48,838 nt of DNA, from NCBI GenBank assembly GCA_027622715.1, contig JAQBYN010000022.1:1-48838 (forward strand), in the 5' to 3' direction. The translations under genes and the position numbers were made by a program. Below, in pieces: positions 21,520 through 26,665 of this stretch. The notes under the pieces were generated by a model. It ran no database searches. It saw only the letters and a program-made list of their open reading frames with translations, and was not told where the DNA came from. The stretch is from Pseudomonadota bacterium. GTDB lineage: Bacteria > Pseudomonadota > Alphaproteobacteria > SHVP01. Within the stretch, counting starts at the first letter, position 1; the number at the start of each line of letters is the position of its first letter.

Positions 21520-22710
21520 ATGGCGGACGTCAACGAGCAAGCAATTATCAAGGTATTGTCGGTCATTCGTGGTCCGGACGATCCCGGCGATGTGGTCACC
21601 CGGGGGCTGATCCAGGGTTTGCAGGTCCGCAATGGACATGTCGCCTTTACCCTCGATGTCGATCCAGAACGCGCCGCCCACTTTGAGCCTTTGCGCAAAC
21701 AATGCGAGGACGCCGTCTTCGATATGCCCGGCGTCCTGTCGGTTACGGCGGTCCTTACCGCCCATCAAACGGCTGAAACGCCCCAAAAAAGCGGCGCCAA
21801 GGGCGGTATGGAACAGGGTGCAAAAGGCGGTATAGAGGCTGGCGCCGACGGCGGCGCGCCCGGTAAAAACAACGGCGGCGGCGGGCAAAGCCAGAAAAAG
21901 ACAGTGCCGGGCGTTCGCGCCATCCTCGCTGTCGCCTCCGGCAAAGGCGGCGTGGGGAAATCCACGACGGCGGTAAACCTGGCCATGGCCTTCGCCCGGT
22001 CCGGGATGCGCGTCGGCCTGATGGATGCGGACATCTATGGGCCCAGCGTCCCCAAGATGATGGGCCTCAAGGGCCGCCCAGAGGCGACGCCCGACGGCCA
22101 GAAAGTCATTCCGAAGGAAGCCTACGGTGTTAAATGCATGTCCATCGGGTTTTTGGTGCCCGAAGACACGCCCATGATCTGGCGCGGGCCGATGGTCATC
22201 AGCGCCATCCAGCAGTTGCTCTACGAAGTGATGTGGGGTGAGCTCGATATCCTGGTGGTCGACCTGCCGCCGGGTACAGGCGATGCCCAGCTGACCATGG
22301 CGCAGCACGTGCCGATCACCGGGGCTGTGGTCATCTCGACCCCGCAGGATGTCGCGCTGCTTGATGTGCGCAAGGGTCTCAACATGTTCCGCAAGGTCGA
22401 TGTGCCGGTTTTCGGCGTGGTCGAGAACATGAGCTACTTCCTGTGCCCCAGCTGTGGGCATCGCGCAGAGATATTCGGGCACGGCGGTGCGCGGCAAACC
22501 GCGCAGGAGATGGAGACAGATTTCCTTGGCGAGATTCCGCTGCACCTGTCAATTCGCGAACATGCCGACGCGGGCACGCCGATTGTGATGGCCGAGCCCG
22601 ACAGCGACCATGCCAAGGTGTATCGCGATATCGCCGGTCGACTAGCGGAGAAGATCGAGCGCGCGTTGCTTGAGGACGCGGTAAGCGCGCCGCGCATCGT
22701 CATCGAGTGA
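21520..22710 (+). CDS. Mrp/ApbC-family iron-sulfur cluster carrier ATPase
   Basis: Mrp/ApbC proteins are cytosolic dimeric P-loop ATPases that hold and deliver [4Fe-4S] clusters. From ATG 21520 (MADVNEQ) the product has 396 aa. An N-terminal DUF59/MIP18 domain covers about residues 5-85. A Gly-rich linker follows, then the deviant Walker A GKGGVGKST, and the metal-binding pair in CPSCGH. The linker is odd: it contains near-repeats GAKGGMEQ, GAKGGIEA and GADGGAPG before GGGG. An ATG at 21493 is in frame but has no good ribosome binding site. The next gene starts inside its stop codon. Confidence 0.94.
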   Translation: MADVNEQAIIKVLSVIRGPDDPGDVVTRGLIQGLQVRNGHVAFTLDVDPERAAHFEPLRKQCEDAVFDMPGVLSVTAVLTAHQTAETPQKSGAKGGMEQGAKGGIEAGADGGAPGKNNGGGGQSQKKTVPGVRAILAVASGKGGVGKSTTAVNLAMAFARSGMRVGLMDADIYGPSVPKMMGLKGRPEATPDGQKVIPKEAYGVKCMSIGFLVPEDTPMIWRGPMVISAIQQLLYEVMWGELDILVVDLPPGTGDAQLTMAQHVPITGAVVISTPQDVALLDVRKGLNMFRKVDVPVFGVVENMSYFLCPSCGHRAEIFGHGGARQTAQEMETDFLGEIPLHLSIREHADAGTPIVMAEPDSDHAKVYRDIAGRLAEKIERALLEDAVSAPRIVIE

Positions 22711-23324
22711 GCCCGGCCGCCAGCATCCAGCTCCGGGTGGAGCTGGACGCAATCACCAACGACCACGTCCCGCTCGTCGAACATGTACCCCGGATTGCAG
22801 CGCTGGCAGAGCATTTGCCGCACTCAATTGGGGCACGCCCGACAAGGCCTTCGCCAGGGTTCAACTGCTTTGCCTATGCATTTGGACTGCACGACCAGGC
22901 TGCCTACACGCGGATAGCAGCGGCAGAGCAGCGCGCCCGCGGCAACCGCTTTTTTGCTAACAGCAAATTTGCCGATCATCTCGTGCGCACGAATGCTGTC
23001 ACGCCAATCGGCCAGCGCGCTCTCACCCCCGGCGACATCGTTCTCTACACCCATGACCAACGCATAGTTCATGCCGCCCGAGTGATTGAGGGTGGGTCCC
23101 TACAATCGAAGTGGGGCCAAGGTCATCTTTACGTTCATCACTTATGGGAGGTGCCGGCCCGGTACGGCAACACCGTACGGTTCTTCCAGAAATTGGGACC
23201 GGATCCGTACCTGCCCCAATTCGCGCATTTCTTGCGGGAAAGTACCGGTTGGGCCGAATTCGCGGCCACCAATCTCTCTTCGGTTTTTCCGAACGGCACA
23301 AAGCACTCACCGCCTGCGAAATAG
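22707..23324 (+). CDS. Uncharacterised protein with NlpC/P60-like cysteine-hydrolase motifs
   Basis: I do not recognise this 205-aa family with certainty. Three landmarks fit the papain-like NlpC/P60/CHAP fold: Cys54 in FNCFAYAFG, the segment TPGDIVLY (about 107-114), and His122 in IVHAARVIEGG. A distinctive run SKWGQGHLYVHHLWEVP follows. There is no signal peptide, so a cytoplasmic role is implied. The GTG start overlaps the mrp stop as GTGA, which suggests coupled translation. Peptidase or amidase activity is inference from the motif order only. Confidence 0.7.
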   Translation: MSPAASIQLRVELDAITNDHVPLVEHVPRIAALAEHLPHSIGARPTRPSPGFNCFAYAFGLHDQAAYTRIAAAEQRARGNRFFANSKFADHLVRTNAVTPIGQRALTPGDIVLYTHDQRIVHAARVIEGGSLQSKWGQGHLYVHHLWEVPARYGNTVRFFQKLGPDPYLPQFAHFLRESTGWAEFAATNLSSVFPNGTKHSPPAK

Positions 23325-23530
23325 CGTCTGCGCCGAGAGCTATGGGACTTCCCTTAAGCCAGTAGGGGATTCCCCGAATTGTACGGACCCGCGGCGCATT
23401 CGAAAATACGAGCACCACGCGACCGCGGGCCCAGCTTTTGCCCGGCAGGCGACCGGGCAACTGGTCTCCCCAGACCTAACACGTTTCCCCCCACGCCAAT
23501 TGGCGACGAGTAAACCCAAAGGTAGCGACC

Positions 23531-24313
23531 ATGAAGAGTAACCGACGCCAAGTGCTGGGCTGGATGGCCGCCGGCGCCGTAGCCTGCCCGACCTGCCTCT
23601 CGCTGGGTGTATCGCATGCCGCGGAAACCGGCCATGACGCGGTCCATTGGGACTACAAAGGCGAGGGCGCGCCGGAACGCTGGGGTTCGCTCGAATCGCG
23701 GTTCCGTGTTTGCGACCTGGGTCTCGAACAATCGCCAATCGACCTTCAACGCTCATTGCGGGCTGAAGTGGGCGCGGTTCGCCCGTTCTTTCGCCCGACC
23801 CGGCTTCGCGTGCTGAACAATGGTCACACAGTTCAAGTCAACGCCGATGAGGGCAGTTATTCCGATATTGTCGGCCAACGCTACGACCTCTTGCAGTTCC
23901 ATTTCCACCATCCGAGCGAACACCTGCTGGACGGCGAGAGCTTTCCGTTAGAGATACATTTCGTTCATCGCAGCGCGGCGGGGCAGCTTGCCGTCCTAGG
24001 CGTGTTCTTCCGCCAGGGGGCGGCTAATGACGAGCTGGCAAAGGTGTTCGACGCAATGCCGAGCCAGGAAACGCCAGAGCGGGATGCCGGAATGCAAGTC
24101 GACCCCCTAGGCATGCTGCCGGCCGCGCGGGGCTACCTGCGGTACATGGGTTCGCTGACGACGCCGCCTTGTTCGCAAGGCGTCCTGTGGACGGTATTTC
24201 GCGAACCGCTTGAAGCCTCATCGAGCCAGATTCAGCAGTTCTCCGAGATCTTCCCGTTGAACGCCCGGCCTATCCAGCCGCTGAACACCCGTTTTCTTCT
24301 CGAGAATTCCTAG
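23531..24313 (+). CDS. Alpha-type carbonic anhydrase with a Tat-like signal
   Basis: This enzyme interconverts CO2 and bicarbonate. The 260-aa product has the zinc ligands in QFHFHHPSEH (two His) and EIHFVH (third His), and the conserved SLTTPPCSQGVLWTVF near the C-terminus. The N-terminus carries the twin arginine NRRQVLGW followed by a hydrophobic stretch and SHA, so export to the periplasm is likely, probably by the Tat route. Length is normal for bacterial alpha enzymes. The start ATG is preceded by AGGTAGCGACC. A chemoreceptor gene begins only 21 bases after its stop, which points to an operon. Confidence 0.94.
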   Translation: MKSNRRQVLGWMAAGAVACPTCLSLGVSHAAETGHDAVHWDYKGEGAPERWGSLESRFRVCDLGLEQSPIDLQRSLRAEVGAVRPFFRPTRLRVLNNGHTVQVNADEGSYSDIVGQRYDLLQFHFHHPSEHLLDGESFPLEIHFVHRSAAGQLAVLGVFFRQGAANDELAKVFDAMPSQETPERDAGMQVDPLGMLPAARGYLRYMGSLTTPPCSQGVLWTVFREPLEASSSQIQQFSEIFPLNARPIQPLNTRFLLENS

Positions 24314-24334
24314 AACGCATTGGAGCTACCCGCT

Positions 24335-26665
24335 ATGTCCAGCAATTCAACGACTCGCCAGACCGGCTTTTTCGCCAAGCTGAGCTTGCGGACGAAAACC
24401 TATTCTGCGTTTTCGGCACTTCTTACCGTGATCATTCTCATAAGTGGCGTCTCGATTTACACGAGCCGGGTCGTGACGACCGAATTCGAGTCTTTTGCCA
24501 GCGCCGCCGGGTTGGCGGCCACGGTCGAGAAACTTGAACGCGAGGTGGTCGACTTGCGTGGTCGCGCCCGCGCGTTCTTTTTGTCGGGCGACGAGGCCGA
24601 GGCAGAGCTGGGCTTAGAAGTTGCGGAGGCCACGAAGGAGGCCGCCGTTCATGCGGTTGGCGCGGCAAACGATCCGAAAATACATGACGAGCTGGTCGTC
24701 ATTCAGGGCGAAGTCAACAAATCAGTCGAGCTGTTCGAGGAATTCGTCGCGAAGCGCCGCGAGATGGAAGTGCTTGTCTCCGAACGCCTTGAAGTCGGCG
24801 GCGCGAAACTGGTTCACGATCTCGAGGCGCTCGAGGTCGGCGCGGCCCGCGCCGGCGCGGCCAATGCGGCGATCCTGACCGGCACTGCGATCATTTTGGC
24901 GCTGGAGCTGGAGCTGGAAGTCGAGATTCTGCTGTCGCGGCACAAGGCGGAGTTTGCCGAACAAGCCCACAACACGTTCACCGAACTGCAAAGCACGCTG
25001 ACCGCGATTGGTAGCGCAAACGGAATTGCCAGTGTCCAAGCCCTGTTTGAACAGGTCGACGCGGAAGCCAAGGGGTATTTCGCAGCGTTCGAGGAAGCCG
25101 CCGAAATCAGCGCTGAACTTGAGCACATGCTTGACCGCGACACCGGGCAACTGACCGCCGGGTTGAACAAAATAGCTACCGAATTAGACCGCGTCCTCAG
25201 CGAGATTCACGAGATTGAGGCGCACCTCAAGGATCAGGCAGAATCGGCCCTGAGTTTCTCCTCAACGACTGTCCTGATTGTGGGTCTGGTTGGCCTGCTA
25301 TTCGGCATCGTCATGCAGTGGCTGTTGGTGCGGATGACCGTGAATCCGATTGGCCAAATCACCGGTGTGATGCGGCGTCTGTCTGAAGGTGAACTTCAGG
25401 CCGAGGTACCGTCACGCGAGCGCGCTGATGAGATCGGTGACATGGCGGAAGCACTGCAAGTGTTCAAGGAAAGCGCAATCGAGATTGAGAACATCCGCGC
25501 GGCACAGGAACAAGCCGGCAAAGAAATCGATGTGGTTGTGGCTGCGGCCGCGGTTGGCGACTTCACATCCCGGGTCGAACTTGCCGGCAAGAAAGACTTC
25601 ATGCTGGATTTGTCGAAATCCATGAACCAGTTGGTTGAGACCGTCGATAACGGCTTGAACGAAGTTCTCACTGTGGCATCGGCCCTTGCCGTTGGCGACC
25701 TGACATCGCGCATGACGGGCAACTACCAGGGATCATTCCTGCGCCTGAAGGACGATCTCAATTCGATGTCGGAAAAGCTCTCTGAGCTCGTTGGCGACAT
25801 TCGCCAATCGACCGACGCTCTCAACGGTTCCGCAGGGGAACTCGGCCAAGGCGCCGACGACCTCGCTCAGCGGACCGAACAGCAAGCGGCAAATCTCGAG
25901 GAAACCGCGGCGGCGATGGAGGAGATGACGGCGACCGTCCAGAGCAACTCCAAAAACGCGGCATCGTCGAACGAGATCGTCGGCGAGGCAGAGCAAAAGG
26001 CCAATGCCAGCGGAGAAATCGTGCGCAACGCCGTAACGGCAATGAATCAGATCGAGGGGTCGTCGAAGGAAATCTCTGCGATCGTCAATGTGATCGACGA
26101 CATTGCCTTCCAGACCAACCTGCTGGCGCTAAACGCCGCCGTTGAAGCGGCCCGAGCCGGCGATGCCGGCAAAGGCTTTGCCGTCGTTGCCAGCGAAGTC
26201 CGTTCACTGGCGCAGCGTTCGAGCGAAGCCGCGAAAGAGATCAGCGCCCTCATCGCCAAGAGCGGCGAAAACGTGGCGCAGGGCGTCAAGCTGGTGAACG
26301 AAACCGGCGAATCGTTGAACGGGATCATCGATTCGGTCCAGCGCGTGGCAGGGATCATTCAAGAAGTCGCCTCTGCCAGTATCGAGCAATCTACCGGTCT
26401 TGGTGAGGTCAACACGGCGATCTCGCAAATGGATGAGATGACGCAACAGAATGCAGCGATGGTCGAGGAAACGACGGCAGCCGCCCGATCGCTTTCAACG
26501 GAGGCCGGGAAGCTCGTCGAGCTCGTCAGCTTCTTCCAAGTCGGCGGCGGTACGGGGCGGCCTACTCGCGCTGCGGCTAAACCTCAGGCCGCCATCGCCG
26601 CGCCGCCGCAACCCCAAGCGATCGCCCAGAAGCCCGGCGGCAAAGACGATTGGGCTGAATTCTAA
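24335..26665 (+). CDS. Methyl-accepting chemotaxis protein with a long helical sensor
   Basis: The 776-aa transmembrane receptor has a first membrane segment (about residues 27-45), a large periplasmic Glu/Ala-rich helical region (about 46-305) resembling a helical bimodular (HBM) sensor, and a second segment ([21 protein letters not shown]). HAMP-like linkers and then the signalling domain follow. Its hairpin tip reads [23 protein letters not shown]. The C-terminus KDDWAEF is an acidic/aromatic tail like those that tether adaptation enzymes. ATG 24335 has GGAG upstream; a TTG at 24320 is less likely. It is tightly linked to the preceding carbonic anhydrase. The ligand is unknown. No che genes lie in this window. 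Confidence 0.93.

Follow-up and report, generated by a model that had tools for sequence, protein, structure and literature searches.

An alpha-carbonic anhydrase gene recurrently paired with a chemoreceptor gene in Alphaproteobacteria, a candidate module for sensing CO2, bicarbonate or pH

The sensing of CO2 gradients by bacteria is poorly known. McpS of Pseudomonas putida, a chemoreceptor with an HBM domain, is an organic-acid receptor, and we know of no enzyme linked to it. To our knowledge, no chemoreceptor has been described with a dedicated periplasmic enzyme encoded alongside it, and we know of no carbonic anhydrase (CA) gene beside that of the Helicobacter pylori chemoreceptor TlpA. 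H. pylori performs chemoreceptor-mediated bicarbonate and acid taxis via TlpA and TlpB (PMC8406319). In Pseudomonas aeruginosa, the PilJ-type domain of the chemoreceptor McpN is reported to bind nitrate directly (PMC6381276).

We analyzed a stretch of 48,838 nucleotides, hereafter the window, from an alphaproteobacterial genome assembly (GCA_027622715.1, contig JAQBYN010000022.1), in which an alpha-CA gene precedes a gene for a methyl-accepting chemoreceptor (MCP). Full-text searches of open-access papers yielded no publication that connects CA and MCP genes, in agreement with the preliminary description of this DNA, which knew of no described system with such a layout.

The gene pair in the window

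The predicted CA scored 142.8 bits against the PF00194 profile (cut-off 27), and its whole mature part could be aligned to solved bacterial alpha-CAs, of which 6im0, 4xz5 and 4c3t were the closest structures. In addition to the zinc ligands recognized by this alignment (Table 1), the protein keeps the shuttle H99, the gate E130 and T210 (equivalent to Thr199). All seven catalytic positions are invariant across the 26 paired CAs aligned, which suggests that CA activity is probably the trait under selection. At the N-terminus, read by eye, RR precedes a hydrophobic segment (SNRRQVLGWMAAGAVA), a pattern consistent with a twin-arginine signal. Of the paired CAs whose N-terminus could be read, nearly all likewise have RR, with KR in L078. 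The profile match, the alignment and the N-terminal sequence thus agree with the preliminary description of an alpha-CA with complete zinc ligands and a putative twin-arginine signal.

Table 1. Positions of the paired genes and their features in the window
Feature	Position	Strand	Evidence
Alpha-CA with twin-arginine-type signal, 260 aa	23531..24313	+	Pfam PF00194, E 2e-41
Zinc ligand codons H124, H126, H143	23900-23902, 23906-23908, 23957-23959	+	Alignment with solved CAs and 26 paired CAs
21-base gap between CA and MCP genes	24314..24334	+	Sequence; terminator scan
MCP, 776 aa	24335..26665	+	Pfam HAMP, HAMP_2, MCPsignal
Periplasmic six-helix sensor, HBM-like predicted fold, approx. residues 50-300	24482..25234	+	AlphaFold2 model; McpS 2yfb match
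Arg202-His203, turn between sensor helices 4 and 5	24938..24943	+	Frequent in CA-paired receptors
Tandem HAMP domains	25322..25774	+	Pfam PF00672, PF18947
MCP signalling domain	25976..26443	+	Pfam PF00015
C-terminal DWAEF, resembling the CheR/CheB-binding pentapeptide	26648..26662	+	Sequence; DWKEF of relatives

The CA gene ends with a stop codon at 24311-24313, and the MCP gene runs from an ATG at 24335 to a stop at 26665. A scan of the gap between them found no terminator-like site, and a ribosome-binding-like GGAG (24322-24325) lies nine bases 5' of the MCP start. The MCP has a TM-periplasmic sensor-TM arrangement followed by a pair of HAMP domains and then by an MCPsignal domain with a conserved tip. 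The sensor could not be assigned to a Pfam family with confidence, and the HBM profile (PF16591) was unmatched; 6 of 13 relatives matched HBM weakly (best E 2e-4). The AlphaFold2 model of the sensor (mean pLDDT 82, from 13 sequences) has six helices that form a stack of two four-helix modules, as expected of an HBM domain. The best solved match of the model was the HBM domain of McpS (2yfb; Z 21.0, rmsd 2.6 angstrom, 229 of 235 residues), a structure solved with malate/succinate, and its further structural neighbours included helical sensors such as PilJ (Z 19) and TorS (Z 17). A PDB profile search with the sensor gave weak matches only (ancestral PcpI, E 6e-5). The coordinates and Pfam domains confirm the earlier statement that 21 bases separate the end of the CA gene from a full-length chemoreceptor gene on the same strand, and the predicted six-helix fold is consistent with the large helical periplasmic sensor that had been proposed.

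Upstream of the pair, a DUF7689 open reading frame (22707-23324) sits between a gene for an Mrp-type ATPase and the CA gene on the same strand, ending approximately 207 bases 5' of the latter. The GC skew changes sign at around 22000-24000 of the window (cumulative minimum), which probably reflects gene orientation.

Recurrence, phylogeny and genomic context of the pair

The preliminary description had proposed searching genomes for alpha-CA genes less than 100 bp upstream of such MCP genes, and had set beforehand restriction to one strain as evidence against the idea. The pair proved to be conserved, with at least 26 loci in at least 24 alphaproteobacterial genomes (distinct records, plus one remnant), although these counts are of unevenly sampled database genomes and not of independent origins. 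The hosts include Skermanella, Rhodopseudomonas, Bradyrhizobium, Rhizobium-labelled MAGs and others. Gene order and strand are constant across the pair loci, and the spacing between the genes ranges from 14 to approximately 95 bases. A class-wide CA search gave matches in 31 of 385 genomes, headed by two copies in one genome (G345) and one in another (G086), and a gene for the same sensor (approximately 25% identity) lies directly 3' of all three, on the same strand. In a second scan, in which the best 80 CAs were taken from 84,980 species genomes, this sensor type directly follows 11 of the 13 top-ranked CAs. The pair is plasmid-borne in Skermanella mucosa and S. rosea, where independent annotation calls the products a carbonic anhydrase and a HAMP-domain MCP. 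In the Rhodopseudomonas palustris XCP family, the sensor was directly downstream at all 12 fetched loci with a CA identity of at least 63%, and at none of the 18 with an identity of 50% or less. A stop or frameshift breaks one gene of the pair in G086, L070 and L240.

In each gene tree, the paired members fall in one clade. All 14 paired CAs in a tree of 99 CAs fall in one 22-row clade (SH-aLRT 93), compared with 0 of 77 outside it (Fisher p 8e-12), and a second, separately drawn CA set gave 12/12 against 0/18 (p 1e-8), both p-values ignoring relatedness and the two sets sharing a few genomes. The paired label required five changes on the CA tree versus 13.3 in shuffles. Rhodopseudomonas and Bradyrhizobium also carry a second lineage of CAs, which is never paired (0/31 in that clade). 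In a tree of 43 sensors, all 16 paired members and the remnant lie within a 23-row set (100/99), and none of the 20 further sensors of comparable type is paired. CA and sensor distances across 22 pairs were correlated (r 0.82; none of 300 label shuffles as high), a result that co-inheritance alone could yield. Recurrence across genomes rules out chance adjacency of CA and MCP genes, and the counts outside the paired clade or class (0/77 and 0/18) rule out the pairing as a general trait of alpha-CAs.

The linkage follows the sensor. The window MCP shares its signalling domain type and C-terminal DWxEF with the Rhizobium-labelled MCPs (DWKEF in the latter), whereas the other paired MCPs have a different signalling domain type without DWxEF. 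Since the Rhizobium-labelled sensors nest with those of Bradyrhizobium and Rhodopseudomonas in the sensor tree (99/94), the output half was exchanged while CA and sensor were kept together; CA linkage is a property of the sensor and not of the receptor output domain. The window sensor is only approximately 25% identical to the other paired sensors. His at the helix 4-5 turn occurs in 19 of 22 paired receptors, in none of the seven unpaired ones in the clade, and in none of the 20 similar-type sensors outside it. With phylogeny allowed for, the association of Arg-His with CA presence comprised two concordant and zero discordant independent pairs and was non-significant. Arg202-His203 was therefore dropped as a proof of CA-sensor coupling and remains a lead.

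Each partner also occurs alone. Eight members of the CA clade have no adjoining receptor gene, and six members of the sensor clade (seven counting the CA remnant) have no adjoining CA gene. A locus in G269 (L181:4778-9132) is syntenic with the G345 cassettes and retains the PAS-MCP and the sensor-MCP, with the CA gene missing; its receptor has Arg-Arg where the window sensor has Arg202-His203. The remnant in G156 (L183:4600-5500) is a CA-like open reading frame directly before the sensor-MCP gene, which keeps the frame, the signal and the C-terminus and has lost the region of the three zinc histidines. These two loci, a receptor without a CA and a CA frame without zinc histidines, exclude a strict one-to-one rule. 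In G086 (L045:6400-8600), the CA gene has an in-frame TAA and the receptor passes into a cheY fragment shortly after its second TM helix, on which grounds we dropped the idea of a receptor that lacks an output domain; decay of the genes and collapse of the assembly fit this damage equally well.

Several pairs lie among chemotaxis genes. The order cheW-CA-mcp on one strand was found at five loci (L067, L069, L231, L240 and L241), with Pfam confirming cheW at L067, L069 and L231. In G086, the cheY fragment and an MCP gene follow the CA-mcp pair, and between them lies a gene resembling cheZ (Pfam E 3e-6, which falls short of the family cut-off). A second MCP gene follows the pair in Bradyrhizobium locus L071 and a putative one in L068. 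CheA was present in 9 of the 14 genomes searched. No other metabolic gene common to the pair loci was seen among the neighbourhoods compared. Two Rhizobium-like arrays (L231:6649-10543 and L241:3286-6963) have the order MCP-cheW-[secreted sCache_2 protein]-MCP-cheW-CA-MCP, in which the sCache_2 protein precedes its neighbouring MCP in the same manner as the CA. AraC-family regulators (AraC_binding_2) stand divergently beside the CA gene at L044:7569-9692, L232:4566-6665 and L239:8369-9364; they represent two distinct lineages, with 36-38% identity from one to the other.

The window's genome (3.15 Mb in 86 contigs, called 100% complete) encodes two MCPs and one CheW, with its chemotaxis genes on contigs C18, C33 and C79, and MotA- and MotB-like genes, recognized by eye, are on the same contig as CheW. 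The sensor of the second MCP (C33) contains CVNCH, a CxxCH motif. CheA was not found in the 86-contig assembly, and the window receptor may be an orphan, or cheA may sit in an assembly gap. A genome of the same genus has CheA and neither gene of the pair. CA and sensor genes were both absent from all nine family members, which suggests that the window lineage acquired the pair or that its relatives lost it.

A possible function in CO2, bicarbonate or pH sensing

The recurrence of the pair, its place in clusters with cheW, mcp and cheY, the match between CA and sensor families and the exchange of the output half strongly support a functional link of CA and receptor in one sensory function. What the receptor would sense is best explained from CA chemistry, which points to CO2, bicarbonate or pH. 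The preliminary description had offered both ideas; the shared sensory role gained support from recurrence, che clusters and co-occurring families, and the proposed ligand comes from CA chemistry, the predicted sensor fold being that of a domain known for organic acids (McpS). Our favoured reading, to which we assign a probability of about 0.55, is a conserved sensory module in which a periplasmic CA equilibrates CO2, bicarbonate and protons and the receptor reads bicarbonate or pH. The presumably exported enzyme would bring these species to equilibrium locally and almost instantly. The six-helix HBM-like domain of the receptor, presumably co-transcribed with the CA, would bind a product of the equilibrium, most likely bicarbonate, or respond to the proton, and the signal would pass from the sensor through the HAMP domains to the MCP tip. 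Without a catalyst, the hydration of CO2 needs seconds or more, which is longer than a swimming run lasts, and a receptor for bicarbonate or pH could then not track a CO2 gradient; with CA, CO2 and bicarbonate would become one readable signal for a presumed taxis response. Several observations weigh against this reading: McpS, with the nearest fold, binds organic acids, some clade members have one partner only, the window's assembly shows two MCPs and no CheA, the nine family members have neither gene, and the window sensor has low identity to the others. The further proposal of a dedicated CO2 sense, in which the periplasmic CA lets a helical-bundle receptor follow CO2 while the cell swims, the unit being inherited across Alphaproteobacteria, is bolder, and we put it slightly short of an even chance.

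Among the alternatives, the receptor could sense an organic acid as McpS does, with the CA co-expressed for the same growth state, for example to buffer the periplasm or to recover CO2 from acid decarboxylation, and with no direct exchange of signal. The nearest solved fold, McpS with malate/succinate, and the occasional solitary occurrence of either partner speak for this. However, the CA always neighbours one sensor subfamily and not others, it is placed inside cheW-mcp clusters, and the loci have no other metabolic gene visibly in common, which makes the organic-acid explanation unlikely. More doubtful still is a CA acting as a docking co-receptor that binds the sensor as TorT binds TorS and passes on the CO2/bicarbonate state by contact. 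Contact alone would not need the catalytic residues, which are fully kept, and the tendency of Arg202-His203 to follow CA presence is non-significant after phylogeny; in favour of docking are that tendency at the helix 4-5 turn, the TorS sensor among the structural neighbours (Z 17) and the secreted sCache_2 protein that likewise precedes an adjoining MCP in the two Rhizobium-like arrays.

Besides hydrating CO2, alpha-CAs are known to catalyse side reactions, ester hydrolysis among them, and hydrolysis of an ester, COS, CS2 or cyanate might make or destroy another chemoeffector whose product the receptor senses. This general property is what commends the idea, but no gene in the pair loci points to such substrates, and we regard it as improbable. 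Chance or hitch-hiking adjacency in the window's genome could draw on the nine family members that have no pair; occurrence in at least 24 genomes, both gene trees and the two counts contradict it so clearly that it is barely credible. Under the favoured reading of an equilibrating CA and a bicarbonate or pH receptor, the recurrence of the pair points to an undescribed way of sensing CO2, bicarbonate or pH, and gives an orphan group of HBM-like receptors a likely ligand class. The module is present in culturable hosts (S. mucosa, S. rosea and R. palustris), in which CO2/bicarbonate taxis is testable with a common CA inhibitor.

Comparison with known systems

McpS has in common with the window MCP the predicted six-helix, two-module fold and the TM-sensor-TM-HAMP-MCP layout, but its sequence identity to the window sensor is 11-12% and the window protein lacks a Pfam HBM match. 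TlpA of H. pylori has a dCache sensor, in contrast to the helical bundle predicted for the window MCP. McpN offers a precedent for a helical periplasmic domain that binds a small planar anion, nitrate being planar like bicarbonate, whereas its domain family differs from that of the window sensor and the summary of that study mentions no enzyme partner (PMC6381276). TorS and TorT combine a helical sensor domain with a periplasmic partner protein, as the CA-MCP pair would; however, TorS belongs to the histidine kinases, and TorT is a non-enzymatic binding protein, unlike an MCP and a CA. Bacterial alpha-CAs such as 6im0 and 4c3t belong to the same enzyme family and have the same catalytic residues as the window CA, and whereas the other alpha-CAs sampled are not tied to a receptor gene, the clade of the window CA is.
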